A stretch of 64,000 nucleotides of DNA from Flavobacteriia bacterium (lineage in GTDB: Bacteria > Bacteroidota > Bacteroidia > Flavobacteriales > Schleiferiaceae): contig JABXHW010000038.1 in assembly GCA_013373425.1 (NCBI GenBank), forward strand, positions 1 to 64,000, given 5' to 3'. The notes beneath the pieces are model-generated. The model ran no database searches, was not told where the DNA came from, and saw nothing but the letters and a program-made list of their open reading frames with translations. A program made the position numbers and the translations under genes. Positions 1,724 through 25,478 of this stretch are shown piece by piece; the stretch's first letter is position 1; the number at the start of each line of letters is the position of its first letter.

Positions 1724-2662
1724 ATGAGAAACGAGCGCAAACCATGGAAGTCGGTTCGAAGCCTTTGGCTGACGAGAGTGGGGTTTCTCATGATCGCATT
1801 TCTCCTTTGGGCCCTGATGGAACTGGGACAAGAACGCTTTGAAAGCAGGATCAGCGTTCCGGTAAAGTTGGTTCAAACTCCAGACGATCGACTTATTGTG
1901 AACCCTCCTGAATGGGTTCGCGTCCTCTCCAAAGCGGAAGGTCTTTACGCCTTCCAAGAGCGCTTTAGAGAACAATCCGAATTAGAGCTTCCGTTTGACG
2001 CATTTGAGTCGGATGGAAGAAATAGATACTATCTCACTAGCGAAAGATTCAATCGTTTGGCGAGCTCTATTATCCCTTCCAGCGTGTCTTGGAGTCTGGT
2101 TGGTGATACGCTTTGGTTAGAGACGAGCTCGTTGACCAGTAGATTGGTTCCGGTAGTGGCCAATCTGGATTTGCAGTTTGAGAACCCCTATTATGCCTTT
2201 GGTGACCCAGTTCTCAAACCCGACTCGATCTTCATTTTTGGAAAGGATGAAATTTTGGATACGCTTTCGGCTTTTCGACTCCAGCGCTACAGGCAGACTA
2301 GTGTAAACGCGTTAATCACCTATTATTCTAGCTTGGAAATGCCGGACGGTCTTACAAGTCCAACGGATGTGGTTCAAGTAGAGCAGGATGTACGTCCATT
2401 CACGGAGAAGAATATTGAGATTCGGTTGTTTTCGAATCACCCTGAAGGTCTTTGGGAGCCAAATCCACGGCAGGTAAACGTGATCTGTCGCGTTCCTATG
2501 GAGTATTATTCTCAGCTCTCAGATGTAGACTTTCGAGCGGAAGTTCGGCCTGTAGAGGGAGGGAGTGCAGTTGCACCTGTGCTTCTTACAAAGGTGCCGA
2601 GTTACGTGGAAATCATCGATTGGTCGCCTCATTACGTCGATTTAATTCAAACACAACGCTGA
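1724..2662 (+). CDS. YbbR-like domain protein
   Basis: This 312-aa protein has one N-terminal transmembrane helix (about residues 15-33, 'FLMIAFLLWALMELGQ') and a long extracytoplasmic part. That part reads as beta-rich repeats of the YbbR type ('RISVPVKLVQTPDDRLIV', 'LVPVVANLDLQFENPYYAF'). In Firmicutes, YbbR/CdaR partners the cyclase CdaA; no cyclase is visible here, so that role is not implied. It sits between yajC and coaE as in many Bacteroidota. Its TGA overlaps the coaE ATG by one base (TGATG), indicating translational coupling. The family call rests on position and general pattern more than on a strict motif. Confidence 0.75.
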   Translation: MRNERKPWKSVRSLWLTRVGFLMIAFLLWALMELGQERFESRISVPVKLVQTPDDRLIVNPPEWVRVLSKAEGLYAFQERFREQSELELPFDAFESDGRNRYYLTSERFNRLASSIIPSSVSWSLVGDTLWLETSSLTSRLVPVVANLDLQFENPYYAFGDPVLKPDSIFIFGKDEILDTLSAFRLQRYRQTSVNALITYYSSLEMPDGLTSPTDVVQVEQDVRPFTEKNIEIRLFSNHPEGLWEPNPRQVNVICRVPMEYYSQLSDVDFRAEVRPVEGGSAVAPVLLTKVPSYVEIIDWSPHYVDLIQTQR

Positions 2663-3258
2663 TGCTGAACGTCGGACTTACAGGAGGAATAGGAAGTGGG
2701 AAATCCACCGTTGCCCAGATTTTCGAAGCCTTCGGCATACCATGCTATTATGCCGATGATAGAGCGAAAGAACTCATGCGTTCTGATGAGAATTTGAAAT
2801 CCGACCTCATCGAAGAGTTTGGCGCTGATGTTTATCAAGATGGATCATTGAACAGAAGTTTACTCGCGAAAATCATTTTTGAGGATGATTCGGCAAGAGA
2901 GCGTATCAATGGATTGGTGCACCCTGCAGTGGGACGAGATTATGAGGAATGGCAAGCCAACCAGAATTCGGCGTACGTCCTGAAGGAAGCGGCTATACTC
3001 TTTGAAACCGGAGGCTACAAGGCTAGCGACTACAATATTCTTGTGACCGCTCCCGAGGAGTTGCGCTTACGCCGAGTAATGGAGCGTGATGGAGCGAAGA
3101 AAGAGGAAGTTCTCGCTCGGATGCGAGCGCAATGGAGTGACGAGAAGAAGTCAAAGCTCGCCGATTTCATTATCTTAAACGACGAGGACCATTCTTTAAT
3201 AACCCAAGTCAAGGAAATTCATGAAGCTCTTCTTATCCGAGCAAATTCGTCAAATTGA
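2662..3258 (+). CDS. coaE: Dephospho-CoA kinase
   Basis: CoaE performs the last step of coenzyme A synthesis, phosphorylating the 3'-OH of dephospho-CoA with ATP. The 198-aa product starts 'MLNVGLTGGIGSGKSTVAQ' with the Walker A motif at residues 8-16. It continues with the family motifs 'YYADDRAKELM', 'LVHPAVGRDY' and 'KEAAILFETGGYK'. The ORF track extends upstream to base 2452, but that stretch overlaps the YbbR gene in another frame. The ATG at 2662 gives the usual family length and couples to the upstream stop. Its 3' end overlaps the next gene by 38 nt. Confidence 0.96.
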   Translation: MLNVGLTGGIGSGKSTVAQIFEAFGIPCYYADDRAKELMRSDENLKSDLIEEFGADVYQDGSLNRSLLAKIIFEDDSARERINGLVHPAVGRDYEEWQANQNSAYVLKEAAILFETGGYKASDYNILVTAPEELRLRRVMERDGAKKEEVLARMRAQWSDEKKSKLADFIILNDEDHSLITQVKEIHEALLIRANSSN

Positions 3259-11044: not shown

Positions 11045-12709
11045 ATGACTGTTTCAACTAGACCTACTTTCTCAATGAGCAGGGCACTTATGTTATTGAT
11101 GTCGGTATTCTTCCTGGCATCTTGTACTGACCCAGGACCACAAAACGTGAATGTTGTCCCAAGCGACGCATCTGCGGTAGCAACCTTTGACTTTTACTCT
11201 ATTGCCAAGAAAGGCAAGCTCGATGAATTCAAGGAGTTCAAGACATACCCAAAAATTAGCGAGTTCTTGAATGAAGAAAGCGAAGTACTCGGCGATCTAT
11301 TTTCTCAAATGATTGATGATCCATCTATCAGTGGAATCGACTGGTCGAAGAAGGCCATTTGGTTCATGGAAGGTATTGAATCTCCTTCTGCATACATGGT
11401 GCTTGAGATGGATGATAAAGCCAAGTTCCGCGCAATGTTGGACAAGGTGAAGGAAGAGGCTGCGGCTGATGCTGAAGATATCAAGTCGGGTGAAGGCTTT
11501 GATTACATCGACGGTGGAGGTTCCATCATGGCATGGAACGACAACGTTGTTCTCATGAAAATGGATGGAGCATATGATAGCGAAGCTGCTTTATCAGACG
11601 TTGCTGAGCGCCTTGCGAATACACAAGAGAATTCAATCGCTGCCTCTGAGAAGTTCAATACTTTCTACAATGAAGGTAACGATGTAGCTTTCTGGATGCC
11701 AGTGGCTCAATTTTACGACATCTACTCCAATGCAATGAACAACATGTCTTCGGAAGCTATGCCGAGAATGGACTGGTTGTTCGAAGGTGAGTCTTTTGTG
11801 ATTGCAGCGTTGAACTTCAACAAAGACGATTACAGAATGACTATGCGCCTCGATCCTAGTGATGAGGTAAGAGCCAAACTCGACGAGATTTACACAGGTG
11901 AGCCGTTGGACGCTGACATCCTCAACTACCTTCCTGCTGATGCATACATGCTGATTACAGCACATAGCGCTAAAGATGCGAAGAGCACAGTGATGGAGCT
12001 ATACGGTGAAGACGCTTTTACCGGAATGGACGAAGTGATGGCAAATGCTGGTGTTCCGTTCAAGTACAGCGAAATCCTTGAATCATTCGGAGGAAACTTT
12101 GCAATGAGCATCTCATCTATTGCCATGGAGCCGTACATGCGAGAGCAGTACAACTACTACACTGGAGAAACAGAGATGGTTGAGGATATGCGTCCAAACA
12201 TGGGAATGTCCGCTGTTATCGATCTTACTAACCGTGATGTATTGGACTTTGCAATGGACACGTTGATGGTGATGTCTGAAGGCATGCTCGTTCAAGATGG
12301 TCAACAATACTATTTCGAGATTCCTGACATGGGAACAACTGTACGTGTAACTTACAACGAGGAGCGAGCGTTTATCACAACAATCGATGATGCGATGATT
12401 GCTTATCTCAATGGCGGTTATGGCGATGCGAGCTTGGGTAAGACCGACCTTGGTAAGAAGGCTGCTTCAATGAGCTTCTATATGTACTTCAATGCTGATA
12501 TGTCTACATACCCTGGTCAAATTCAGCAAATGATGAACAACCCAATGACGGCTCAAGCGAAGCCAGTGCTCGATATGTTGAAGAGCATCGAATTGCACCC
12601 AACGGGTGATTACGAAGGGTCATACATCATTAATTTCCACGAAACGGAGGATAATGCTCTCTATGACTTGTTGAGTTTGATGGATGACATGGGTGCTAGA
12701 TTCTTGTGA
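11045..12709 (+). CDS. DUF4836 family lipoprotein
   Basis: This 554-aa exported protein matches the DUF4836 pattern known from Bacteroidota. A signal peptide is followed by the lipobox 'FLASC', so it is probably anchored by lipid. The domain opens with 'VNVVPSDASAVATFDFYSIA' and contains 'WFMEGIESPSAYMVLEMDD' and 'YLPADAYMLITAHSAKDA'. No catalytic motif is apparent; the fold looks like repeated alpha-beta units. Its stop overlaps the GTG start of an ABC ATPase by 4 nt, followed by a permease. The tight coupling suggests the three work together. Function is unknown. Confidence 0.85.
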   Translation: MTVSTRPTFSMSRALMLLMSVFFLASCTDPGPQNVNVVPSDASAVATFDFYSIAKKGKLDEFKEFKTYPKISEFLNEESEVLGDLFSQMIDDPSISGIDWSKKAIWFMEGIESPSAYMVLEMDDKAKFRAMLDKVKEEAAADAEDIKSGEGFDYIDGGGSIMAWNDNVVLMKMDGAYDSEAALSDVAERLANTQENSIAASEKFNTFYNEGNDVAFWMPVAQFYDIYSNAMNNMSSEAMPRMDWLFEGESFVIAALNFNKDDYRMTMRLDPSDEVRAKLDEIYTGEPLDADILNYLPADAYMLITAHSAKDAKSTVMELYGEDAFTGMDEVMANAGVPFKYSEILESFGGNFAMSISSIAMEPYMREQYNYYTGETEMVEDMRPNMGMSAVIDLTNRDVLDFAMDTLMVMSEGMLVQDGQQYYFEIPDMGTTVRVTYNEERAFITTIDDAMIAYLNGGYGDASLGKTDLGKKAASMSFYMYFNADMSTYPGQIQQMMNNPMTAQAKPVLDMLKSIELHPTGDYEGSYIINFHETEDNALYDLLSLMDDMGARFL

Positions 12710-13326
12710 TTATCACGTTAAACAACATACGACCCACATATATGTCAGAAGCCGAGTTATCGGCTTCTGATGTTTATATGTCACCCAGCGTCACTTTCGA
12801 ATCTCCCAAGCGATACCTCATTCGTGCAGAATCTGGACATGGTAAGTCGAGTTTGCTCAACTTCATCTTTGGTTCGAATCCCTCATTTGTAGGAGACATC
12901 AATCCAAAACCAAATAGTAGCGAAGAGTGGAGGAAGTCGATGTTGAGCTATGTGTTTCAAGATTTGAAGCTGTTTCCCGAACTATCTGTGTGGGACAACT
13001 TGCAGTTGAAGAATCGACTCACTCAGCATAAAACAGACGATGAGATCAAAGTGTATCTCAATGAACTTGGGATAGATTCAAAAGCAAATGAGAAGGTAGA
13101 GAAGTTGTCCTTAGGTCAACGTCAGCGTGTGGCTGTTATCCGCGCTTTATGTCAGCCTTTCCACATGCTATTACTGGATGAGCCGTTTAGTCACCTCGAC
13201 GATTCCAACCGTGCTAAGATTGCCGCTCTGATTGAACGTGAGCTCGATTCTCGTAACGCCGGACTCTTGGTGACATCATTGGGGCCGGATGACACATTCA
13301 ACTACGATATAGAATACCGCCTCTGA
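12706..13326 (+). CDS. Degenerate ABC transporter ATP-binding protein
   Basis: A 206-aa ABC ATPase of the LolD/MacB size class, starting with GTG inside the DUF4836 stop. It keeps a Walker A ('ESGHGKSSLLNFIFG'), a Q-loop ('FQDLKLFPELSVWDNL'), the signature 'LSLGQRQRVAVIRAL' and Walker B with D-loop ('MLLLDEPFSHLD'). The switch His is missing: the usual 'VTH' position reads 'VTSLGPDD'. The N-terminal A-loop region is also atypical and carries an unusual insertion. ATP hydrolysis may therefore be slow or lost, so the ATPase could be mainly a nucleotide-controlled regulator. It is coupled by TGATG to the permease gene that follows. Confidence 0.85.
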   Translation: MIITLNNIRPTYMSEAELSASDVYMSPSVTFESPKRYLIRAESGHGKSSLLNFIFGSNPSFVGDINPKPNSSEEWRKSMLSYVFQDLKLFPELSVWDNLQLKNRLTQHKTDDEIKVYLNELGIDSKANEKVEKLSLGQRQRVAVIRALCQPFHMLLLDEPFSHLDDSNRAKIAALIERELDSRNAGLLVTSLGPDDTFNYDIEYRL

Positions 13327-14498
13327 TGTTAGCACGATTACAAATCAAAACATTGATGCCGCTTCAGCTGATTGGATACGCGGTGTCGCTAGTTATTGGA
13401 GTATTCTTAGTGTTAGTGGTGGCTCAGGCCTACATTGATTTACGCCCTGTGCTCTCCGAACAAGCTGAGGTTTTTGAATCTGAATCCGCTATTCTGACGA
13501 AGAAAGTGTCGGTGTTCAGTTCAGTAGATAAAGGCCGAATTTATTTTACCTCGGATGAAATTGATGAACTAAGGGAACAGCCTTATATCGACGAAGTGGG
13601 GGCATTCAACAGTGCATCTTTTCAGATTTGGGCGGTAGCAGAAGTAGGTCAAAGCGGTCAGTCGGTTCGCTCCGATCTCTTCTTCGAAAGCGTTCCGAAT
13701 CGCTTTGTAGATGTCCAGGACGAGGCTTGGAAATGGGAGGATGGCGATACGTTGATTCCTATCATTGTACCGAAAGATTATATTGACTTATACAACTTCG
13801 GCTTTGCTGAGAGTCAAGGTCTGCCGGTAATGTCTGAAAGCACCGTAAAAGGGTTTGCTTTTAAAATCATCCTTAGTGGTGCGGGTAAGAGTAATCAGTA
13901 TTACGGGGCAGTGGTTGGATTTTCGAATAAGCTGAATTCCATACTCGTTCCAGACGAATTCATGCAGTGGGCAAATGCTACTTATGGAATGGGTGAGGAA
14001 AATCGCTCAAGTCGTTTGCTTATTTCGCTAGATGACCCGACGGACGAACGTTTTCTGACTTTGATTAATGAAAACGGATATGTGTTGAATGAAGAGAAAC
14101 TGGAGCAAAGCAGACTGAACTTCTTGTTCAAGTCTTCAATTCAGTTTACTGCGTTTCTAGCATTGGTCATAATGATTCTCTCCATTGGTTTCTTAAGCCT
14201 GAGTATCAATCTTATGATGCAAAAACATGAGAAGGTGATTCGAAACCTATGGCTGATGGGATATTCACACGTTCAGATTTCGAGATTCTACCAGTTGATT
14301 ATTACGGGGCTCACGCTCACAGGAGTAACCATTGCTCTGATGCTCGCTACAATCTTCAGAGCAGAACTTGGAGAGTTGCTGAGCAGCACTTTGAAATCAG
14401 AACTTCAGCAGAATTGGCTATGGCTATATGCGCTGGGAATATTTATAGTGCTCTCCGGATTCTTCAGTTGGAGAGTCTATCGAAAGGTGAAGAGTTAA
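13326..14498 (+). CDS. FtsX/MacB-like ABC permease
   Basis: A 390-aa permease-like protein with one N-terminal transmembrane helix (about residues 14-38), a large extracytoplasmic domain, and three C-terminal helices from about residue 275 ('FTAFLALVIMILSIGFLSLS', then two more). That is the FtsX/MacB four-helix plan. The segment 'QKHEKVIRNLWLMGYSHVQI' fits the cytosolic coupling helix of FtsX-type permeases. Together with the preceding ATPase and DUF4836 lipoprotein it may form an envelope mechanotransmission or lipoprotein-handling complex; this is inference from family and context. A terminator follows. Confidence 0.83.
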   Translation: MLARLQIKTLMPLQLIGYAVSLVIGVFLVLVVAQAYIDLRPVLSEQAEVFESESAILTKKVSVFSSVDKGRIYFTSDEIDELREQPYIDEVGAFNSASFQIWAVAEVGQSGQSVRSDLFFESVPNRFVDVQDEAWKWEDGDTLIPIIVPKDYIDLYNFGFAESQGLPVMSESTVKGFAFKIILSGAGKSNQYYGAVVGFSNKLNSILVPDEFMQWANATYGMGEENRSSRLLISLDDPTDERFLTLINENGYVLNEEKLEQSRLNFLFKSSIQFTAFLALVIMILSIGFLSLSINLMMQKHEKVIRNLWLMGYSHVQISRFYQLIITGLTLTGVTIALMLATIFRAELGELLSSTLKSELQQNWLWLYALGIFIVLSGFFSWRVYRKVKS

Positions 14499-14643: not shown

Positions 14644-14660
14644 GTAGCGAGGACGGGAGT
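14644..14660. repeat. att direct repeat, left end (displaced tRNA 3' end)
   Basis: GTAGCGAGGACGGGAGT is identical to bases 23580-23596 and copies the last 16 nt of tRNA-Met plus one base. Similarity stops after base 14660. From there to 14760 are two hairpins: TTGA/TCAA-based near 14680-14705, and TTCTCAA-AAA-TTGAGAA at 14712-14728. These could be integrase or excisionase arm sites; no gene is seen. Confidence 0.9.
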
Positions 14661-14760
14661 GTTATTCCGCGCTTTTTAAACCGTAAACCCTTGATTATCA
14701 AGGTTTGATTCTTCTCAAAAATTGAGAAAATAGTGCTTTTTCGGTGCCGGCATCTGATTC

Positions 14761-15126
14761 TCAAATAAAGGCCGAAATGTCTTGAAGGACCTTGCTTTTT
14801 GCCTTCTCTTCGGAGCTGTCGGACGTCTTCCAGTTTTCCTCTAAATACCTTTTCATTGTATTGAACACGTGTTTTTGTCCATACAACAAAGGGTTGCTCT
14901 CTGGCACTGGAGCATCCTTTTGATCTTGAATGTAGAAGTGATACATCGACAATCCTGAATCTCTACAGATGTCTGCGAGCTGCTGCACATCGAGTTGAGA
15001 CTCACCTTCTAGAATGCGTCTCAAACGCATATAGCTCATTTGATATTTCTCAGCAAACTCGCGCTGAGTGTAGTCTGAAGCTTTGACAAACTCCACAAAA
15101 AGGCTTGTGTTGAAACGCATATTCAC
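14761..15126 (-). CDS. XRE-like repressor
   Basis: This 121-aa protein has a helix-turn-helix of the XRE/Cro-cI type in its first 60 residues: 'YTQREFAEKYQMSYMRLRRILEGESQLDVQQL'. A short C-terminal helical part is probably for dimerisation. It lacks a LexA-like protease domain, so induction would need another signal. It is divergent from the rightward phage-like genes with a 72-nt shared promoter region holding an inverted ATCAAAA repeat. The likely job is repression of the rightward genes, as a lysogeny-type switch. ATG at 15126 or 15120 could be the start. Confidence 0.8.
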   Translation of the reverse strand: MNMRFNTSLFVEFVKASDYTQREFAEKYQMSYMRLRRILEGESQLDVQQLADICRDSGLSMYHFYIQDQKDAPVPESNPLLYGQKHVFNTMKRYLEENWKTSDSSEEKAKSKVLQDISAFI

Positions 15127-15137
15127 AAGATTTTAGC

Positions 15138-15176
15138 ATCAAAACGATACTGTGAGTTACATTTTTGATACTTTTG
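15138..15176 (+). promoter_or_regulatory. Divergent switch region: operator and promoter
   Basis: ATCAAAA (15138-15144) and its inverse TTTTGAT (15163-15169) are separated by 18 nt. A perfect -7 box TACTTTTG (15169-15176) overlaps the right half-site and points to the gene at 15199. On the minus strand TCGTTTTG resembles a -7 box for the repressor. GATACT also occurs twice, 21 nt apart. Binding by the neighbouring XRE protein is inferred. Confidence 0.6.
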
Positions 15177-15198
15177 GAAAAATTCAAAGTTTTAGCAA

Positions 15199-15411
15199 AT
15201 GTACGAACCTAAGTCAAAGCGAGTCCAAAAGCGTGCCAAGCAGATCACTAATGATTTCGTAGATGGGCTTGAGAGGGGTATGAGTCCTTCAGACATGTAC
15301 CCCATACTAGCGAAGCGATATGAATTTACGGAAGCATATATCCGAAAGCTCATTCCAGTAAAAGAGGCCCGAAAGGCTTTAGCTCTTCGATATGTCGGTG
15401 CGCAGGGTTGA
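15199..15411 (+). CDS. Small basic HTH-like phage protein
   Basis: A 70-aa protein without a recognised family. It is helical and basic, with a segment that could form a helix-turn-helix ('MSPSDMYPILAKRYEFTEAY' followed by 'IRKLIPVKEARKAL'). It is the first rightward gene after the switch, 22 nt after a good -7 box, so it may act as an early regulator or excisionase-like factor. Its last 20 nt overlap the next, frameshifted, reading frame. Being real is supported by position, coupling and lack of a competing frame. Confidence 0.62.
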   Translation: MYEPKSKRVQKRAKQITNDFVDGLERGMSPSDMYPILAKRYEFTEAYIRKLIPVKEARKALALRYVGAQG

Positions 15412-15609
15412 TCTCTCCGCTTTCGGAATGATGGCTTGTCACGGCTGTGGTAAGCCTGTTTCTGTAGATGCGCATCAATTCAAATCAACGGCACGACCAT
15501 TCCTATTCCGTTAGGTGTCGTTTGGCCTATTGAGTCAAGAGACGGCTATTTAGAAGTTGAAATAGTAGATCCTGCAGGCGGAACGATTTGGATGTTGTTC
15601 ACTGATTAA
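15392..15609 (+). pseudogene. Frameshifted small phage gene
   Basis: Frame 2 from the ATG at 15392 reads 'MSVRRVDLSAFGMMACHGCG' and on to 'SVDAHQFK', then meets a stop 27 nt later. Frame 1 continues directly as 'INGTTIPIPLGVVWPIESRD' and 'VEIVDPAGGTIWMLFTD', ending in TAA 14 nt before the next gene. One missing A in the run at about 15482-15484 (TTCAAATC for TTCAAAATC) would join them into a 72-aa protein with a CxxC motif. The site does not match a canonical -1 slippery heptamer. It may be a true mutation, a sequencing error, or unusual recoding. No family is recognised. Confidence 0.6.
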
Positions 15610-15622
15610 CTGATAAGCCAAG

Positions 15623-16813
15623 ATGACACACGTTGAGTTACTAGAGAAGATTTTCATTGGTTACAAAAAGACCTATACCGATCCACGTGAGTTCTGGGAT
15701 GTACTGAAAGAACTAGCAAATGGAACCGGAAATGCCTCTTTGGTTGTAGTGGACAGCATTGCAAACCTTCAGGCGTATGGTGCTGCAAGCGACGAGAATG
15801 TCAATACTTTGATTCTTGGAACGATGGATTCCGATGGCGGAATTTTCTACTACTCCACTGATGCTTTAGTTCCTGACGGGGTTAACATTATTAGCGCAAC
15901 AGGTCGAGGATCAGGCTATTGGGTAAGAGCTGTTCTATCAGGATCGGGCAATTTGTACACAGAAAATCCCGTGACAGAGCCCGGATTCCAATTCATTCAA
16001 GATCAGGACGACAACTATACAGGTTTAGGTCTTGCTCAGGTAGGACTCGCGGCTTACGGTCCAATCGTAACCGGAGAACCTGGAGGCGGGGTTTTTGACC
16101 CTACTTTTACCACAGCGGCTTTGTTCGCTATGGGCATGCTTACTGATGTTCAAGGCTCTGGCGCTGTCGGTATTGGTTCTATTGTGAAGTCTCAGGGACA
16201 AAGCTCGGTCGCAATTGGTACAGGCACGCAAGCGCTGGAAAATCATGATGTAGCATTTGGTCAAAACGCTATTGCTTCAGGTCAGAACAGTGTTGCATTC
16301 CAAGGAGCTAATGCAGAGGCGATTTATAGCTTTTCCCATGGCAACTCAGCGCTTGGAAGATGGGCGGGGGCCTTCACCTACGGCTACGCTCAGAATAATA
16401 ACGACAGAATCACGAATAAACCATATGTGGGTAGAACGCTGCTCAACTACCTCACGAATGATGCTACTCCAGTAGACCTATCTGATGGATCAACGGCTCA
16501 AAGTCCCTTCGTACTGAGAGACAACAGTTTTTGGGAGTTTGTAGTTGAAGTTTCGGCAATAGAAGTTGGGACGTTGACGACTGCTGCAAGGTGGTCATTC
16601 AAGGGTGTGATTTCTCGTGGAGCTGGTGTAGCCACCGTCGCAATTGTTGGTGTTCCAATAAAGACTGTCCATTTCAACGGCCTAGCAACTGCGGATATAG
16701 AAGTCATTGCAGACACGACCCGAGGATCATTGGCTGTTAGAGCTACGGGAGAGGCCGCAACTTCAATTCGATGGATTGGAGAAATTGTTCTAGCTGAATG
16801 CTTAATCGCCTAA
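15623..16813 (+). CDS. Tail-fibre-like protein with YadA-head-like repeats
   Basis: A 396-aa protein of phage tail-fibre or appendage type. The N-terminus ('EKIFIGYKKTYTDPREFWDV') could be an attachment part. Around residues 180-235 are short repeats of the trimeric-adhesin head type: 'GSGAVGIGS', 'GQSSVAIGTGTQALENHDVA', 'FGQNAIASGQNSVAFQG'. These form trimeric beta helices in YadA-like proteins and some phage fibres. The C-terminal 150 residues look like a beta-sandwich, perhaps a receptor-binding tip. It precedes another fibre-like gene and a lysis cassette. The identification is by motif and context, not by a full family match. Confidence 0.65.
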   Translation: MTHVELLEKIFIGYKKTYTDPREFWDVLKELANGTGNASLVVVDSIANLQAYGAASDENVNTLILGTMDSDGGIFYYSTDALVPDGVNIISATGRGSGYWVRAVLSGSGNLYTENPVTEPGFQFIQDQDDNYTGLGLAQVGLAAYGPIVTGEPGGGVFDPTFTTAALFAMGMLTDVQGSGAVGIGSIVKSQGQSSVAIGTGTQALENHDVAFGQNAIASGQNSVAFQGANAEAIYSFSHGNSALGRWAGAFTYGYAQNNNDRITNKPYVGRTLLNYLTNDATPVDLSDGSTAQSPFVLRDNSFWEFVVEVSAIEVGTLTTAARWSFKGVISRGAGVATVAIVGVPIKTVHFNGLATADIEVIADTTRGSLAVRATGEAATSIRWIGEIVLAECLIA

Positions 16814-16822
16814 TAAAGAGCT

Positions 16823-17548
16823 ATGCCAACTACAAATATCATTCAAGCAACCAAAGACTATCTCACAACGAGAAATGAAGTGTATCCAGTGAATACCGCA
16901 ATTTTCGAAACCGATTATGGCTTCGCCAAGATTGCTGATGGCGTGACCGCTTATAATTCACTGCCCTATGAAAGTGTAGGGGGAGGTGGTGGAAACCTAG
17001 AAACCGCCGCTGCTATCAGCTCAATTCCTCAAGTGGTAGAAGACGCGAACACAGGAGACGATTCAGCCTTATTACTCGCTCGATCATTCACGGGAGTTCA
17101 ATATGGAAACTTCTCAGCCGCGGGGGATACTCAATATCTGAGAACTAACCTAATCAAATCCATTGCTGGAGCATCGAGCTTCACAAATGAGGAGATATGG
17201 ATTGGCGGAATCACAGATTTCAACATTCAGGTTCCTGACGGAGAGACTTGTTTCTACAAAATTAGACTTCGTGCAGAGCTTTCGACCGGTGGAGGCCCGG
17301 AAATTACGGTGAGAGATAGCACTATTCAAGGCGCAATGTCGGTTACAGCTGCGGGGGCCAATACAGGAGCATACAGCACCGAGGTTAATATAACGGATAA
17401 CACAACCGGGTTGACCTTCAATGTTGCAGGAGACGCTGCGACAACGCCAAATGAAATTTTAATCAGAGCTTCCTTCGGATCAGCGTTTAACAGCTGTCGA
17501 ATATTCGGATGGGCTGAACTAATGTATCATCCTTACATCGATGCCTAA
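16823..17548 (+). CDS. Phage tail-fibre protein with Mtd_N-like start
   Basis: The 241-aa product carries, near residues 22-47, 'AIFETDYGFAKIADGVTAYN' followed by SLPY. This matches the pattern 'GE.gyEtDtGk.KIGDGvTaWnsLPY' found at the N-terminus of many phage tail fibres and of Mtd-type proteins. A Gly-rich linker follows, then a beta-rich C-terminal domain ('ETCFYKIRLRAELSTGGGPE') that resembles a fibre tip. It starts 9 nt after the previous fibre-like gene and overlaps the endolysin by 8 nt. There is no sign of a nearby reverse transcriptase or variable repeat, so no diversity-generating system is claimed. Confidence 0.7.
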   Translation: MPTTNIIQATKDYLTTRNEVYPVNTAIFETDYGFAKIADGVTAYNSLPYESVGGGGGNLETAAAISSIPQVVEDANTGDDSALLLARSFTGVQYGNFSAAGDTQYLRTNLIKSIAGASSFTNEEIWIGGITDFNIQVPDGETCFYKIRLRAELSTGGGPEITVRDSTIQGAMSVTAAGANTGAYSTEVNITDNTTGLTFNVAGDAATTPNEILIRASFGSAFNSCRIFGWAELMYHPYIDA

Positions 17549-17939
17549 GTATAAGTATTTCAGCAAATCGGATTTTGAGGAGAGCGATATCATTCGTGTT
17601 CCTTGTTCGATCAACGATATCCGACCATCGACGTTGCAGAGGTTTGACCAAGCTCGTGAATATGCGGGTTTTCCATTCGTTGTTACATGCGGAGCACGAA
17701 CCTTAGAACATGAGAAGAGCAGAAATAGAAACGGATTTACATCTCACTTGGTTGATGATGAGAGAGGCATAAAGTGCAAAGCACTTGACCTGAGAATTAC
17801 ACAACCCCGGAAGCGATTTATTGCTACCAGAGCATTAATGAGAGCCGGATTTACAAGAATCGGCATTTACCCATGGGGGCTACATGTCGATGATGATGAA
17901 AAGAAACCTCAAAATGTAATTTGGCATGGGACCCATTAG
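17541..17939 (+). CDS. M15 family peptidase, phage endolysin
   Basis: A 132-aa single-domain zinc peptidase of the M15 (D-Ala-D-Ala carboxypeptidase/L-Ala-D-Glu endopeptidase) type. 'TSHLVDDERGIKCKALDLRI' carries the first metal His and Asp, and 'WGLHVDDDEKK' the last His. The front region 'PFVVTCGARTLEHEKSRNRN' is typical of phage M15_3 enzymes. It has no signal peptide, so it would need a holin to reach the wall. It overlaps both neighbours (8 and 14 nt), as lysis genes often do. The role is cell-wall cleavage, in lysis or entry. Confidence 0.85.
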   Translation: MPKYKYFSKSDFEESDIIRVPCSINDIRPSTLQRFDQAREYAGFPFVVTCGARTLEHEKSRNRNGFTSHLVDDERGIKCKALDLRITQPRKRFIATRALMRAGFTRIGIYPWGLHVDDDEKKPQNVIWHGTH

Positions 17940-18333
17940 AATCGGCCTAAAGAAAGGCAAGTCATACGAAGACGCTCACGGTGTCACTCACAGTAATGCT
18001 GTGATTGTTCCCGGAGTGATAAATCATAACTTAGCTCTGAGAACCATATCCGCTCAGTGGTTCATCTATGCGAATGAGAGCGCTGTCTATTCGAAAGCTC
18101 CGCTCGCGGTGGCCTTTTCTCAGGATTTCAACGCACAGAAAATTCCCAATCACACAGATAAGGACGGAAATGTGCTTTCTTACGGTAAAGCCTCCTACTC
18201 AGAGGCAATTAGCATGTTTGATTTCGCCGACAATGGAATCTTTATTCAGGACCCAGAGGCTCGAGACTATTTAATGAGAACATCTTTCATCGGTAACAAG
18301 CCCTTGACCGAGGATTGGGAAATCACCAAATAG
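17926..18333 (+). CDS. Hypothetical phage protein
   Basis: A 135-aa protein that I cannot assign. It is soluble, with no signal or membrane segment. It contains aromatic-rich beta-like stretches ('ALRTISAQWFIYANESAVYS', 'EAISMFDFADNGIFIQDPEA'). It starts within the last 14 nt of the endolysin gene and ends one base before the DUF1353 start, so it is tightly embedded in the lysis/late run. A structural or lysis-accessory role is a guess from position alone. Confidence 0.6.
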   Translation: MGPIRIGLKKGKSYEDAHGVTHSNAVIVPGVINHNLALRTISAQWFIYANESAVYSKAPLAVAFSQDFNAQKIPNHTDKDGNVLSYGKASYSEAISMFDFADNGIFIQDPEARDYLMRTSFIGNKPLTEDWEITK

Positions 18334-18334
18334 A

Positions 18335-18793
18335 ATGAACTGTAGACAAATTCCTTTAGTTCAACCCTCAATAACTCCGATATCTGAACGCGAGTACGAG
18401 CTGGACGCCTATCATGTTTCCACCTTTGATTACACTGGTGATGGTCAATTTGCAAAGCTGATAATTCAACCAAAATTCGTTTATGACGGTGCCAGTGTCC
18501 CTAGGTTACTGTGGTCCCTCAGTGGTATTCGTCCAGATGGGTTAAATCGTGCCGCCTCTTTGGTCCATGACTACATATACGTGAATAAAGGCGAGCTCCA
18601 TTACTCTGAAATCGAACTGTGCTACCATGGCCAATGGTGCAGAGGGAAGAATATTAAGATTTCAAGGTTGCAATGTGATCGAATCTTCTACCATCAATTG
18701 CGAGAAGCTGGAGTTAGTAAGACAAAAGCAAGAATGGCTTATATAGCTGTTCGCGGATTTGGTTGGATTCCATGGATGAAAAAGAAGAAGTAA
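18335..18793 (+). CDS. DUF1353 phage-associated protein
   Basis: This 152-aa protein matches DUF1353. The hallmark 'FVYDGASVPRLLWSLSG' is followed by 'AASLVHDYIYVNKGELHYSE', 'CDRIFYHQLREAGVSKTKAR' and 'AVRGFGWIPW'. DUF1353 genes are common in phages and prophages next to lysins and tail genes; the biochemical role is not established. Its TAA overlaps the ATG of the next gene (TAATG). Confidence 0.88.
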   Translation: MNCRQIPLVQPSITPISEREYELDAYHVSTFDYTGDGQFAKLIIQPKFVYDGASVPRLLWSLSGIRPDGLNRAASLVHDYIYVNKGELHYSEIELCYHGQWCRGKNIKISRLQCDRIFYHQLREAGVSKTKARMAYIAVRGFGWIPWMKKKK

Positions 18794-19071
18794 TGACGAA
18801 CGAAGAACGCCTGCAGGTGAACTTTTATAAGTTCATTCAGCCCATACTGAGTTCATTAACTACGGTAGCTGTGATTACACTAGCTACTTTTCTGAATAAG
18901 CTCAATACCAACATGGCCGTCATTCAAACTGAAGTCAAGTCAATTAAAGAGGACGTCCATGAAATGAGGTCGAAATATGTTAGCAAGGACGTATTTCAGT
19001 CGCATGAAAGGGAATGGGAGCGTAGAATTATGAACGTTGAATCTCGAATTAGGGTAGTTTCTGGGAATTAA
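18793..19071 (+). CDS. Holin-like small membrane protein
   Basis: The 92-aa product has one clear transmembrane helix (about residues 18-36, 'ILSSLTTVAVITLATFL') and a charged, coiled-coil-like C-terminus ('IQTEVKSIKEDVHEMRSKY'). This plan is found in phage holins and lysis-accessory proteins of the superinfection-holin type. The ATG at 18793 couples to the DUF1353 stop and is preferred over the track start at 18763. A strong terminator follows, so it ends the rightward phage-like operon. The holin role is inferred from size, topology and the nearby endolysin. Confidence 0.65.
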   Translation: MTNEERLQVNFYKFIQPILSSLTTVAVITLATFLNKLNTNMAVIQTEVKSIKEDVHEMRSKYVSKDVFQSHEREWERRIMNVESRIRVVSGN

Positions 19072-19107
19072 TAACTGGTGTATAGTGTGTTAATCGTGGT
19101 GGCCAAG

Positions 19108-19139
19108 GCGTCATATAGGAAACTATATGGCGCTTTTTT
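19108..19139 (+). terminator. Terminator of the phage-like operon
   Basis: GCGTCATATAG and CTATATGGCGC pair over 11 bp (one wobble) with a GAAA tetraloop, followed by TTTTTT. It separates the phage-like genes from the cargo block. Confidence 0.94.
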
Positions 19140-19162
19140 GTATCAACACACCTCTTCAGGTA

Positions 19163-19196
19163 TTGAATAGATACTAAAAAGACTTGAATAAATACT
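19163..19196 (+). repeat. Tandem 13-bp repeats, 21 bp apart
   Basis: TTGAATAGATACT (19163-19175) and TTGAATAAATACT (19184-19196) differ by one base and lie exactly two helical turns apart. They precede the -7-like box at 19215. The region from 19140 to 19387 has no gene, but it also holds TCTTGC-ATGAAC-GCAAGA, a 6-bp inverted repeat at 19249-19266. A role as operator sites for the ImmA/PIN operon is inferred. Confidence 0.55.
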
Positions 19197-19214
19197 GAAT
19201 TTATGATTACTACT

Positions 19215-19222
19215 TATGTTTG
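19215..19222 (+). promoter_or_regulatory. Candidate -7 box for the ImmA-PIN operon
   Basis: TATGTTTG is a perfect TAnnTTTG match, 18 nt after the tandem repeats and about 165 nt before the ImmA-like gene. The long leader contains the 19249-19266 inverted repeat. No good -33 box is seen. Confidence 0.4.
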
Positions 19223-19387
19223 AAAAAGGTTTTGTGGAAATTCCATAATCTTGCATGAACGCAAGATGTCTCACTTTCATTAATCTCTCAATCTCTATTT
19301 TGCTCTTTTAGAGCTTCGAAAGCTACGATTACCAAATTCTTTGATTAACAGCAGAAACATTGTCTGCTTTTGTTCTATCGACAACTC

Positions 19388-20566
19388 ATGCAAAAGGAAA
19401 TTTCAATAAACAACGATAGGTTGAGCTACTTAATCGAAATGTTCGATTTTAGTGAGGACTTTCTATTGGATTACCTGAACGAGTCTAGAAAGAAGTTTAA
19501 GTTAAATAGAGATGACGTTTTTGGTGGGCGTCTCAAATTATCAATCCTTAAAAAAATTGATCTTCTATTCAAGGCTGGTTTGGAGTTTTATTTAGACCCA
19601 TCTCCAATCTTGGACAAACAGTCTCGTAGTGTGTTTTTCAGAAAGTCAGGATTGAATGTAGATTTAAGCCTGGGTGCAAAACAAAGAGTTTTTGAGGGTG
19701 AGCAGTTATACGCCACGCTTCGTGGCCTAGAACATCTTACAGGTCAAAGCACTGAACGTACTTTACCTATTTTTTCAATAAAAGATGACCCTATTGGCGT
19801 CGCGTTGGATGTTGCTACTATCGTAGCGCCCCCTGAGGTGAAACCATCTAATACCAAGCGTGATGTTTTAAAGATTTTTGTGAATCGCTTGGGTGAAGCG
19901 GGTATTTATGTTCATGAATTCATTGACCAAAAAAACAAAATTGAAAAGGCTAATATTGATGGAGCCTTCATTGCCCCGAATTTCATCATAATTAAGCGAG
20001 AGAGCGACACGCAGCTTATCAGTCGAGAAATATTCACGTTAGCACATGAATTCGGGCATTATCTTTTGAATGAAGAAGAGGCTGAAGAAGTAGATCAATC
20101 TGACGTGTTGAAGGAAGATGAACGAAATGATGTGGAGCGGTGGTGTGACATGTTCGCATTTCATTATTTGTTGGGTTCTCACTTTGATGATTTCATGTCA
20201 TTACAACCGCTAACAGCGGATAACGATTTCCAAAATAAGTTGATTGATGATATATATAATCGAACAGGTTTAAGCAAACGTGCATTATTCTATAATCTGC
20301 ATCTTCAAGGCAAGTTGTCTCGGCTTAAATACACAACCATCAAGGAAAGTCTAAATGAAATTCTTGAAATGCGGAGGCAGAAAGCTGCCCTTGAATTGGA
20401 GCAAGAAAAAGCCAGCGGGCAAAAAATTATCCGTATTCCGAAGAGAATATATTCAGAAAAAGTGAGAGGGCTTGCAGAAAGTGCCTATCTATCAGGTCTT
20501 ATCGAGGTGACTGAGTTCAAGCACCTTACAGGCTACACCTTTGATAGAATCAAGAAGTCCTATTGA
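19388..20566 (+). CDS. ImmA/IrrE family metallo-endopeptidase
   Basis: A 392-aa protein with a zinc peptidase domain of the ImmA/IrrE type in the middle: 'REIFTLAHEFGHYLLNEEEA' carries HExxH, and 'DVERWCDMFAFHYLL' gives the downstream glutamate helix region. The N-terminal 150 residues are helical. The C-terminus has a charged helix and 'SEKVRGLAESAYLSGLIEVT', a likely DNA- or partner-binding part. In phages and ICEs such proteases cleave repressors to induce excision; next to a PIN protein they also form toxin-antitoxin-like pairs. The start ATG is preferred over TTG at 19370. Its TGA overlaps the PIN gene by one base. Confidence 0.88.
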   Translation: MQKEISINNDRLSYLIEMFDFSEDFLLDYLNESRKKFKLNRDDVFGGRLKLSILKKIDLLFKAGLEFYLDPSPILDKQSRSVFFRKSGLNVDLSLGAKQRVFEGEQLYATLRGLEHLTGQSTERTLPIFSIKDDPIGVALDVATIVAPPEVKPSNTKRDVLKIFVNRLGEAGIYVHEFIDQKNKIEKANIDGAFIAPNFIIIKRESDTQLISREIFTLAHEFGHYLLNEEEAEEVDQSDVLKEDERNDVERWCDMFAFHYLLGSHFDDFMSLQPLTADNDFQNKLIDDIYNRTGLSKRALFYNLHLQGKLSRLKYTTIKESLNEILEMRRQKAALELEQEKASGQKIIRIPKRIYSEKVRGLAESAYLSGLIEVTEFKHLTGYTFDRIKKSY

Positions 20567-21120
20567 TGAAGTATATCTTTGACACTAACACTCTTGTAAA
20601 CCTATACAGGTACGTCTATCAGATTTGTGAGAACAAGGATGATTTGATTGAGTTTTTTGAAAATATGGTGGCAGACGAAGAAGTTCTAGTATTAGAGAAA
20701 GTACTAGAGGAGTGCAGTTATCACCAGAGAACATTAAAAGGCGAATTGTTTCCAATTTTTGATACGGATGCACATTTTATTGTTAACAAAAGTGGAATCA
20801 TCGCAACTGGAGAATTTATTTCCGAGCTTGACAAACATCTATTAACTCGTGAAGGCGCTTTATTAAAAAAGAGTGAGATAACAGCTTTTGAGGCCCGTAG
20901 AACTAACTTCCTTCGCTCAGCAGATGCTCAAATGGTAATTTATGCGCTTGACCTTATTGCAATGGGTGAGAGTGTTACAATCGTCAGTGAAGAGTCAAGA
21001 AGACAGAACGACGGTAAGGAGTTCAAGAAGTTACCAATAATTTGTGACCATTTTAAAGTAAGCGTTTGCTCCCTTGCTGACTTCCTGAACATTATGAACG
21101 CAAGATTCACTTTTGAATGA
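20566..21120 (+). CDS. PIN-domain (DUF4411-like) toxin candidate
   Basis: A 184-aa protein with PIN RNase features: 'MKYIFDTNTLVNLYRYVY' holds the first acidic residue, 'EKVLEECSYHQ' the second, 'SADAQMVIYAL' the third, and 'VTIVSEESRR' the strand before the last. The domain size and the 'FDTNTLVNLYRYVY' start resemble DUF4411 proteins, which are often encoded after ImmA/IrrE proteases. The likely activity is RNA cleavage, with the upstream protein as controlling partner; this is family-based inference. It is coupled to the ImmA gene by TGATG. Confidence 0.75.
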   Translation: MKYIFDTNTLVNLYRYVYQICENKDDLIEFFENMVADEEVLVLEKVLEECSYHQRTLKGELFPIFDTDAHFIVNKSGIIATGEFISELDKHLLTREGALLKKSEITAFEARRTNFLRSADAQMVIYALDLIAMGESVTIVSEESRRQNDGKEFKKLPIICDHFKVSVCSLADFLNIMNARFTFE

Positions 21121-21195
21121 TTTTAGGAAGAACAACTCTTCGGTACGAAGTATCGATAACAATAAAAAAATCTAAATCTTGCTATCACTGGGCTC

Positions 21196-21996
21196 ATGAT
21201 AAGTGAAAATAGATATAATCTTCCGTCAATTCAGTCATCTTTGGCTATAGGATATGTTATCCTCATCTTACTCTCTTATTATCGACTAGATCACTTTTAT
21301 CGACACTTTGATATCCAAATTTCTAATTACTTAACTCCTACTGAGTATTTGATGCCCGTCTTGCCAGTGGCAAGTCGTTTTATTTGGGTTCTACCAGTCA
21401 TTGTCATCTTCATTTTAATAATGGCATATGGACATCCAGGAGATGTAAAGTCAGATGAGGAAACTTCTGATGATGTTGAAAATTCCCAATTAAAGTATAG
21501 GTTTAATGGAATTGCTTTGATTCTGGCACCACTTGTATTGATCAGTGTAAGTTTTGTTCATCATTATTTACACTTAGAATATCTTTGGATCGGGCATATT
21601 GTGACAGGCGTTTTTTTGGTGTTAGTTTTATTTTATTTAGACATCAGAATGTATGGCAGAATAAAAAGAAAAGGCCCTGTAAGGCACGGAATGACAGTGT
21701 TGTTCTTAGTTGTAGTGATTAGCTCAGTTCTCGCAACTGATTCAACCCGAAGAGCTAAGAAAATACTCATTGACAAAGAGTTGGTTTCAGAATGTCAATA
21801 CTTCTCAGAGACTTTACAAATGTCCACTAGTGAAAGCTTGTTCTTTATTGATGAATCAATGGAGTACATCTTTTTTTACGACTTTGAAAAGTCTGAATCA
21901 GTTATCATCAAGAAGACTTCGGGATATAGAATTCACTATAAGAAAGCATTATCTAAATCAACTACAGAGTTGTTGTTAGAGTCTTTATCCTTTTAA
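21196..21996 (+). CDS. Unknown multi-spanning membrane protein
   Basis: I do not recognise a family. The 266-aa product has about five hydrophobic segments: 'LAIGYVILILLSYY', 'RFIWVLPVIVIFILIMAY', 'GIALILAPLVLISVSFVH', 'IGHIVTGVFLVLVLFYL' and 'HGMTVLFLVVVISSVLA'. A soluble C-terminal domain of about 80 residues follows. The gene is AT-rich like the two before it and lies 75 nt after the PIN gene within the element. It could be a third component of the cargo system (membrane effector or sensor) or an independent passenger. Confidence 0.68.
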   Translation: MISENRYNLPSIQSSLAIGYVILILLSYYRLDHFYRHFDIQISNYLTPTEYLMPVLPVASRFIWVLPVIVIFILIMAYGHPGDVKSDEETSDDVENSQLKYRFNGIALILAPLVLISVSFVHHYLHLEYLWIGHIVTGVFLVLVLFYLDIRMYGRIKRKGPVRHGMTVLFLVVVISSVLATDSTRRAKKILIDKELVSECQYFSETLQMSTSESLFFIDESMEYIFFYDFEKSESVIIKKTSGYRIHYKKALSKSTTELLLESLSF

Positions 21997-22149
21997 TAAA
22001 AGGAGCACAAAGTACATTTAGCAAATGAACGATGGTATTAGCCCCTTATTCATATTTCAAATTCCACTCATCGCCCATAAACTGAATCTATATTTAATCC
22101 CCCTGCCCCCCAAAAAAAAATGCGGAAGGTGCAAGATATTGGTCGAGGG

Positions 22150-22270
22150 TTGGGACATTCACCCCACTTTAAAAGAGGATTTGGACGGGGTTGGGACACT
22201 GTTATAAGCTTGTAAAATGCTGTGAATGATGGTTTTGGGTCAAAAAATTACGTTTGTCCCAATGTCCCAC
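22150..22270. repeat. Four TGGGACA repeats, two direct and two inverted
   Basis: TTGGGACA occurs at 22150-22157 and 22191-22198. TGTCCCAA at 22255-22262 and TGTCCCAC at 22263-22270 are the inverse. The cluster lies between the cargo block and the 3' end of the integrase, in the 323-nt gap 21997-22319. That gap otherwise has only an unconvincing 60-aa frame. Integrase arm sites, a replication iteron set or a regulator array are all possible. Confidence 0.55.
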
Positions 22271-22319
22271 GCATTTTCAGCCTTTGTTGGAGAATTCCAC
22301 TTCGGTAAATAAATTCAGC

Positions 22320-23477
22320 CTATAAGTTTTGAGTGTATCGGAGTAGTTCTGGAGCTGCATTTTGGTTCTCTTTCGGGGTGTATTTATCGGTCACAGAGAT
22401 GTCATAGTGGCCAGCTTGATCTCTGACCACAATAGTAGGGACTCCCATTTGGAGCATCGCAGTAATTCCTGTGTCTTTTAAACTGTAGAACTTATAAGCA
22501 TGATCAAAGCCCAACTCGTTTCTAGTTTTCACCCATGTGTCTGATACTTTTTTAGGTGTCAACTGGATTGCCCCTGGCATGAAGTGATCGGCTGAAAAAA
22601 GGAAGTCTGACGGCTTGGCCTTTTGAGTGTGCTTTTCGAGGACACTTAGAAGGTCATCAGGTACCGTAGTGACTCGATCACGCTTGTTTTTGGTGTCCAC
22701 GGCCGTTACGAATAGTGTCTGATTAGTCAAATTGAGGTGTTCTACCCTGATTTTACACAGCTCAGTTCGTCTAATGAAGGTGTAAAAGATGGTCATGCAC
22801 AAAGCATAATACCCTGGATATGTTTTGAGATGTGTGAATATCTGGGAAAGCACGTCTCTGGGTATCACTTTGCGTTGTTTGATGCTTTCAGGGAGCTTCG
22901 GAATACTATCAGCTGGATTAGACGGTAAATACTTTTTCTGGACCATGTAGACACATAGCCGGTGAAAGAAAGAGAGGTAATTATTCCTGGTCCTAGAGGT
23001 ATTTCCTCGCTCTTCCATTATATGAACCAGGAAATTGTCGATTACAGTTGCGGTCAGTCGAATGGCTGCTTGATCCATTGACTTTTGTCCATACCATGAC
23101 TCGAAATTCTTCAAATAGGACTTGTAAGCTCTTATAGTGTCAGGTCGAATGGCCTTTTGCTTCTCCAGGTTCTTTTTTTCCTTCATGAAGTTGGTAAACG
23201 CATCTCGCAAAGAGATAAACGTCAATTGGCCATCATCTTCTATAAAAGGATTCCACCCTGATGCGAGCTTAATTGTCAAATTACGACAGAGGTTGAGTGC
23301 TTCAGATTCTCTTTTCTTGAGATTCTTAATGCGATTGAACTTGTATCGGACTTCTTTTAGTTTGCCCGTTTCTGGATGACGAACGCGAAACGAAACATAC
23401 CAGGTGGACTTCCCTTTATGTAAAATGGCGGGGGTAAAGTCAACCATGGGGACGAGAGTGGTTAGCTTTTCAGTCAT
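22320..23477 (-). CDS. int: Tyrosine-type site-specific integrase
   Basis: A 385-aa tyrosine recombinase of the Bacteroidota phage/ICE kind. An N-terminal arm-binding-like part ('STWYVSFRVRHPETGKLKEV') is followed by a SAM-like core-binding domain and the catalytic domain. Catalytic elements: Arg in 'FIRRTELCKIR', Lys in 'KNKRDRVTTV', 'FYSLKDTGI' in place of HxxR, His in 'AGHYDISVTDKY', and the Tyr nucleophile in the same motif. The box II substitution is familiar in this Bacteroidota group, so activity is plausible. The 5' end lies about 100 nt from the tRNA-Met attachment site. ATG at 23477 is preferred over TTG at 23486. Confidence 0.93.
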   Translation of the reverse strand: MTEKLTTLVPMVDFTPAILHKGKSTWYVSFRVRHPETGKLKEVRYKFNRIKNLKKRESEALNLCRNLTIKLASGWNPFIEDDGQLTFISLRDAFTNFMKEKKNLEKQKAIRPDTIRAYKSYLKNFESWYGQKSMDQAAIRLTATVIDNFLVHIMEERGNTSRTRNNYLSFFHRLCVYMVQKKYLPSNPADSIPKLPESIKQRKVIPRDVLSQIFTHLKTYPGYYALCMTIFYTFIRRTELCKIRVEHLNLTNQTLFVTAVDTKNKRDRVTTVPDDLLSVLEKHTQKAKPSDFLFSADHFMPGAIQLTPKKVSDTWVKTRNELGFDHAYKFYSLKDTGITAMLQMGVPTIVVRDQAGHYDISVTDKYTPKENQNAAPELLRYTQNL

Positions 23478-23530
23478 GGATATCAAACTCAGGACTCCCG
23501 AAAAAAGTATCGAGTTAGTGCCGTTATGGG

Positions 23531-23574
23531 CAATAAAAAACCCGAAATCCCAGTTTTAATAGGGGTTTCGGGTT
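23531..23574 (-). terminator. Element-supplied terminator of tRNA-Met
   Basis: AACCCGAAATCCC and GGGGTTTCGGGTT pair over 13 bp (one wobble) around a 10-nt loop. On the minus strand TTTTTTATTG follows. It lies 6 nt beyond the tRNA 3' end and inside the element, so it replaces the host terminator displaced to 14601-14638. It also insulates the integrase from tRNA transcription. Confidence 0.9.
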
Positions 23575-23579
23575 ATTTT

Positions 23580-23596
23580 GTAGCGAGGACGGGAGT
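23580..23596. repeat. att direct repeat, right end (within tRNA-Met)
   Basis: GTAGCGAGGACGGGAGT is identical to 14644-14660. It covers the 3' part of the T arm and the acceptor strand of tRNA-Met plus one flanking base. The crossover therefore rebuilds an intact tRNA. Confidence 0.9.
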
Positions 23597-23654
23597 TGAA
23601 CCCGTGACCTCAGGGTTATGAATCCTGCGCTCTAACCAACTGAGCTACCTCGCC
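23581..23654 (-). tRNA. tRNA-Met (anticodon CAT)
   Basis: A 74-nt tRNA folds in full: acceptor GGCGAGG/CCTCGCT (G1-U72 wobble), D stem GCTC/GAGC, anticodon loop TTCATAA, T arm ACGGG-TTCAACT-CCCGT. The anticodon is CAT, and the D loop AGTTGGTTA fits the elongator form. The anticodon stem CAGGA/CCCTG has an A-C mismatch next to the loop, which I recall from related Flavobacteriia. CCA is not encoded. tRNA-Ile2 is a less likely alternative. The gene is the integration target of the element. Confidence 0.95.
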
Positions 23655-25363: not shown

Positions 25364-25478
25364 TTGTATCATACTCTCTACTATTTAATACGATTTTAAT
25401 GGCGGGTAGGTTGGATATTTTTCTTTCGTATCTTCGATTTTCTGCACTTGAATGGGACAATCGTCCCCACACCACGCT

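Follow-up and report, generated by a model that had tools for sequence, protein, structure and literature searches.

A DUF4836 lipoprotein, an ABC ATPase lacking the switch histidine and a four-helix permease as a probable type VII machine of the Bacteroidota envelope

We analyzed a 64,000-nucleotide stretch (the window) of contig JABXHW010000038.1 from a Flavobacteriia bacterium of the Schleiferiaceae (assembly GCA_013373425.1), in which three overlapping genes spanning positions 11045-14498 encode a DUF4836 lipoprotein, an ATP-binding cassette (ABC) ATPase and a permease with four transmembrane (TM) helices. Our results make it probable that DUF4836, the ATPase and the permease work as one type VII (mechanotransmission) machine of the Bacteroidota envelope. 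Co-occurrence of the genes strongly supports DUF4836 as the extracytoplasmic, periplasmic partner of the ABC pair, a role that would also fit the predicted TM-anchored versions of the protein; the sequence-only reading of this DNA had proposed the same role, and we infer that it involves contact between the proteins. No description of such a three-component machine was found in the libraries searched, and the literature searched yielded no paper that mentions DUF4836. For DUF4836, a Pfam domain without an assigned function, the association supplies a functional context, and it marks out an envelope system carried by members of Bacteroides, Alistipes, Capnocytophaga, Winogradskyella and Chitinophaga. 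Moreover, the ATPase family as a whole has lost the switch histidine but kept the catalytic glutamate, a natural experiment on a step of ABC catalysis that is under debate.

All three genes lie on the forward strand. The DUF4836 gene (11045-12709) encodes 554 residues matching PF16120 with an E-value of 4e-44 and 151.8 bits against a cut-off of 27. It overlaps by 4 nt with the gene of the type VII-associated ATPase (12706-13326; GTG start, 206 residues, ABC_tran at 1.5e-23), which overlaps by 1 nt with that of the permease (13326-14498; 390 residues, characterized by an AlphaFold2 (AF2) model, Foldseek and profile matches); both overlaps are exactly those given in the sequence-only reading. 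Homologues of the ATPase align with it from residue 1.

We counted the co-occurrence of these families, as had been suggested from the sequence alone, in a phylum sample (297 genomes), a Bacteroidales sample (149) and a Flavobacteriales sample (198), and found them associated; the samples overlap in part, and the Fisher p-values below ignore the mutual relatedness of their members. In the phylum sample PF16120 was found in 11 genomes, the permease in 8 and both in 8 (p 1e-13), with DUF4836 and the permease adjacent in seven of the eight permease genomes. The DUF4836 gene of genome G354 is cut by a contig start and its ATPase gene begins at the end of another contig, in a neighbourhood where relatives carry the intact operon. 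Among the Bacteroidales, PF16120 exceeded its cut-off in 16 genomes and the permease was found in 19, with both in 15 (p 4e-16); in 14 of these 15 the two are neighbours whose matches lie about 680-820 bp apart, which is room for one ATPase gene, and in G482 they lie 4 kb apart. For G542, with a partial DUF4836 match, adjacency was checked directly. One Bacteroidales genome has DUF4836 without the permease, and the four apparently permease-only genomes encode an exported protein of 493-558 residues just upstream of the pair, three of these being weak DUF4836 matches (27.9-37 bits) and the fourth, the lipoprotein of locus L145, falling below detection. Finally, the permease was found in six Flavobacteriales genomes, each of which has a match to the DUF4836 profile close to it on the contig (p 4e-6).

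A scan with an ATPase profile over the genomes of 84,980 species, of which the best 80 loci were used, recovered loci from Bacteroides, Alistipes, Prevotellaceae, Capnocytophaga, Winogradskyella, Mesoflavibacter, Chitinophaga, Ferruginibacter, Saprospiraceae and others. About half of these 80 loci have DUF4836 directly upstream of the ATPase, and the rest are mostly ATPase-permease pairs in other contexts or loci at contig ends. The trio was found in Bacteroidales, Flavobacteriales, Chitinophagaceae and Saprospiraceae, and the order DUF4836-ATPase-permease is the same in three genomes of the window's own family and in six more distant ones. Within that GTDB family DUF4836 matches are rare (4 of 88 genomes), and two congeners have none. 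When the pair lacked an adjacent DUF4836 gene by the first profile, a DUF4836-like gene was present in 19 of 20 genomes, and that of L089 turned out to lie next to the pair after all; when the ATPase had no permease beside it, a permease was present elsewhere in 8 of 9 genomes. The view that Saprospiraceae loci are permease-less was ruled out in this way, as the permease lies elsewhere in the genome. Clustering of neighbours revealed no further partner common to all lineages; hisS, rsmE-like, thiolase and rlmN-like genes, identified by eye, are neighbours only in particular lineages. The varying surroundings beyond the trio, and counts that ignore relatedness, might suggest a mere gene neighbourhood with no joint function, but the association holds across rearranged surroundings and unlinked genes, and we consider this alternative extremely improbable.

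One Flavobacteriales group carries a conserved row of an MltF-like lytic transglycosylase, miaA, the ATPase and the permease, in most cases with a DUF4369/thioredoxin protein next in the row, and DUF4836 is not adjacent (L053, L060, L065, L069, L073, L076, L088, L093 and L113). We set the MltF/miaA link aside as a clue to a wall hydrolase, since it is confined to this one group without adjacent DUF4836. The title of the L053 record, Glaciecola amylolytica, names a gammaproteobacterium, yet the row is the typical Flavobacteriales one, so that the record may be mislabelled; the same may hold for L105, which bears the label Opitutia.

The DUF4836 protein has a lipoprotein signal with Cys27 in the putative lipobox LASC (11114-11125), as read from the sequence. 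In its AF2 model (predicted local distance difference test score, pLDDT, 89.5) the two halves, at about residues 36-298 and 296-554, have an identical order of strands and helices, and HHalign of one half against the other gives a weak match (E 1e-4, probability 57%); an internal duplication is likely. The sole fold match in the PDB below 1e-3 is TP0453 of Treponema pallidum (3k8j, probability 1.0; for TP0453 and the outer membrane of this species see PMC7521688), and it is remote, with a root mean square deviation (rmsd) of 7.3 A, 10% identity and template modelling scores of 0.50 on the target and 0.26 on the query. Our first guess at what DUF4836 handles, a lipid or a lipoprotein, is speculative and doubtful, and this remote fold lends it weak support; DUF4836 matched no enzyme family. 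Every one of the 38 sequences in the DUF4836 alignment has a PF16120 match, and most of the relatives typed are lipoproteins. However, those of L089, L094, L098 and L144 have an N-terminal TM helix without a lipobox, and this points to the inner membrane as the place of action. Asn537 and Leu539 in the C-terminal helix are among the best conserved residues, making this helix a candidate contact site. Variant arrangements were also seen: in G583 (C4:223378-226239) and G626 (C6:28032-30848), of one genus, two adjoining DUF4836-profile matches in separate frames stand just before the permease, and L027 (5123-7357) is a hisS-DUF4836 locus encoding an enlarged DUF4836 protein of 744 residues without the ABC pair, possibly through secondary loss, since the relatives' neighbourhood has the pair.

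The predicted fold of the permease (AF2, pLDDT 88.2) has the type VII layout of TM1, a large periplasmic domain and three C-terminal TM helices in the FtsX/MacB fold, with TM1 and its stalk at residues 12-48, the periplasmic domain at about 50-255 and the C-terminal TM helices at 256-389. Foldseek searches with the model matched LolE at 6e-12, MacB at 8e-12 and FtsX at 1.6e-4, the chains of LolE, MacB, YbbP and BceB lying between 1e-12 and 1e-8, while sequence profiles ranked YtrF (4e-6) and FtsX (5e-4) first. Judged by this model, the permease belongs to the type VII fold superfamily, and its fold resembles LolC/E and MacB more closely than FtsX. It scores 23.3 bits against the FtsX family PF02687, slightly below the cut-off of 25.5, and 47 of 68 family permeases match PF02687 at E<=0.001. 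The FtsX_ECD domain (PF18075) was matched by none of the 68, but by the genome's own separate FtsX at 7e-15. Likewise, the permease did not match the lolCE model TIGR02212, to which two other permeases of the genome are nearest (6e-49 and 3e-42, both under the curated cut-off). The initial description of the system as diverged FtsEX or Lol-like therefore stands as regards the type VII superfamily, with the permease nearer to LolC/E and MacB, but the pair is neither the FtsX nor the LolC/E of this genome, which exist separately. Because the permease evolves fast, a single-sequence search among relatives recovered almost nothing, and profiles were needed.

The ATPase motifs were compared across 96 aligned family ATPases, the alignment being uncertain by one residue at the H-loop. 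At the switch histidine position the window ATPase reads VTSLG (13270-13284) with no histidine there or beside it, as noted from the sequence alone, and since 95 of the 96 family members lack this histidine, the claim also survived the objection that close homologues might retain it. The switch histidine is kept in all ten unrelated ABC ATPases of the same loci, one of them from this window. The ATPase of L057 has a histidine one position past the H-loop site, and that of L110 from Saprospiraceae (2380-3021) has a normal switch histidine (VSHD) with the other family changes kept; L110 nests within a Saprospiraceae-rich clade on the tree, which suggests a reversal, unless its histidine is an error in a metagenome-assembled genome. 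L110 is a natural test case for the switch histidine. The first glycine of Walker A (AESGHGKSS, 12826-12852) is replaced by alanine, and this position is Ala or Ser in 95 of the 96; the third residue of the signature (LSLGQ, 13105-13119), the first glycine of LSGGQ, is Tyr, Phe, Leu, Met or Ile in nearly all. Because both changes are family-wide, they are real and not due to chance or sequencing error. Thus, of the three motifs described as kept in the sequence-only reading, Walker B is intact (LLLDEP with the catalytic glutamate, followed by the D-loop SHLD; 13168-13200), but the signature and Walker A are altered. Walker A Lys, Q-loop Gln, Walker B Asp and the catalytic Glu are present in all 96, and the signature Ser and second Gly and the Ser, His and Asp of the D-loop are likewise invariant. 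The ATPase falls far below the FtsE equivalog TIGR02673 (80.8 bits, cut-off 264.85) and the LolD model TIGR02211 (67.4 bits, cut-off 307.75); beyond ABC_tran and FtsX, sequence searches of Pfam, NCBIfam and the PDB assigned neither the ATPase nor the permease to a named family, and literature searches on FtsE-like ATPases without the histidine found nothing direct.

In the mechanism that we propose, two copies of the ATPase would dock on two copies of the permease, both presumably homodimers, and ATP binding would close the ATPase dimer. The stalk helices would carry this movement to the LolE/MacB-like periplasmic domain, which may then act on DUF4836, kept near by its lipid or TM anchor. Hydrolysis is probably slow, because the switch histidine is lost on both sites while the catalytic glutamate is kept, and slow hydrolysis would give a long-lived ATP state, as in an ATP-latched switch or a low-turnover loader and not a fast pump. 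Whether the machine is such a slow ATP-gated switch we judge to be evenly balanced, the rate being argued by analogy with other ABC proteins, in which loss of the histidine cuts ATPase activity to <0.1% (HlyB H662A) or <2% (HisP H211D/R/Y and MalK H192R) (PMC6222333). In type I exporters, the degenerate site is one of a pair, with loss of the glutamate as its hallmark and H-loop changes following (PMC7756269, PMC7544095). We tentatively suggest that here a presumably homodimeric ABC ATPase family may work without the switch histidine on both sites, either as an ATP-latched switch or with the histidine moved into the D-loop, driving DUF4836 in a further type VII machine.

Several observations weigh against this picture. 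Of the 27 Flavobacteriales genomes with distant DUF4836-like proteins, 21 have no permease, and such proteins also occur in the phylum sample, where PF16120 does not match them. DUF4836 genes occurring mostly without the ABC pair, which the earlier reading had named as speaking against it, is what we found for these distant relatives, but not for PF16120, where the pair is present in 15 of 16 Bacteroidales and 8 of 11 phylum genomes. Two lineages have the ABC pair parted from DUF4836 and beside other genes, and the unlinked DUF4836-like gene of the MltF-linked group is of the more widespread kind and so supports the association less. As regards slow hydrolysis, the invariant D-loop histidine might compensate for the lost switch histidine. 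An ATPase that is fully active in this way, powering a conventional type VII transporter or extractor with high turnover, would account for a histidine present in 96/96 family members and 0/3 aligned non-family ATPases, and for the invariant catalytic Glu, Walker A Lys and Q-loop Gln. We regard it as unlikely, since in the published view the D-loop does not contact MgATP in the closed dimer (PMC7756269), and ABC-F proteins of the same loci combine a D-loop histidine (NHLD) with a retained switch histidine, so that the former alone is no substitute. Moreover, SHLD belonged to one search pattern and was thus partly selected, although it was also seen in homologues recovered via DUF4836 or permease searches. 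Conversely, the family could be a pseudo-ATPase that binds ATP to hold the complex together and never hydrolyzes it, as the nearly dead histidine mutants of other ABC ATPases (PMC6222333) and the further motif changes fixed in the family would allow; with drift expected once hydrolysis is lost, the invariant catalytic Glu and Walker B Asp (96/96) make this quite unlikely.

Control of a cell-wall enzyme by a diverged FtsEX via DUF4836 would agree with the FtsX-type C-terminal domain of the permease and with the position of the pair after MltF and miaA in one Flavobacteriales group. Nevertheless, the periplasmic domain is LolE/MacB-like, about twice the size of that of FtsX and unmatched by FtsX_ECD, the genome has a separate FtsX with this domain, and the MltF neighbour is not seen in DUF4836-linked loci, which leaves this explanation very unlikely. 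A more specific form of the type VII machine is a LolCDE-LolA-like extractor of lipoproteins or lipids with DUF4836 as carrier or acceptor. LolE as the best fold match of the permease and TP0453 as the only fold match of DUF4836 below the threshold both point that way, but the latter is remote, the genome already has two LolC/E-type permeases, and DUF4836 is anchored by lipid or a TM helix, unlike LolA, which is soluble; we hold this form to be doubtful.

Elsewhere in the window, an integrated element of 8.9 kb (14644-23596; GC 41.7% versus about 45% around it) begins 146 bp past the end of the permease gene. Its tyrosine integrase (22320-23486, PF00589) lies beside tRNA-Met (23580-23654), and 17 bp of the tRNA 3' end, GTAGCGAGGACGGGAGT, occur both at 14644 and at 23580. 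The element also encodes a YadA_head-repeat protein, a weak match to peptidase M15, an IrrE-like M78 protein and a helix-turn-helix protein. The trio as cargo of this element was ruled out, since the attachment repeat begins only past the permease stop. An ordinary MacB/DarD-like ABC system with two permeases and an ATPase with normal SGGQ and THE motifs lies at 25452-28637.

In E. coli, all four described type VII systems pair the ABC proteins with a periplasmic partner, namely EnvC, LolA, MacA/TolC or TesA (PMC12646458). The system described here resembles LolCDE-LolA in its type VII ABC proteins, the fold of the permease periplasmic domain and the periplasmic partner, but it has a single permease gene, an ATPase without the switch histidine and, in place of LolA, an anchored DUF4836 protein with no detected relation to it, the LolC/E-type permeases being separate in the genome. 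With MacB of MacAB-TolC it shares a four-TM permease with a MacB-like periplasmic domain that is probably homodimeric, whereas the ATPase is a separate gene, there is no recurrent MacA adaptor alongside, and the switch histidine is lacking. As in FtsEX-EnvC, the ATPase and permease are separate genes, with an FtsX-type C-terminal TM domain and an extracytoplasmic partner; however, FtsX_ECD is absent, the periplasmic domain is bigger, the true FtsX lies elsewhere, and FtsE keeps its switch histidine (H197 in S. pneumoniae, PMC7468199). YbbAP-TesA, for which extraction of hydrophobic compounds has been proposed (PMC12646458), is likewise a type VII ABC system with a dedicated periplasmic partner, but YbbP has 10 TM helices in one chain, and TesA is a hydrolase, whereas DUF4836 matches no enzyme family. 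TP0453 is, like DUF4836, a lipoprotein, though about half the size. The rule for type VII systems, that closure of the ATPase dimer on ATP binding makes the periplasmic domains move and act on the partner (PMC12646458), is the one that we would extend to DUF4836.

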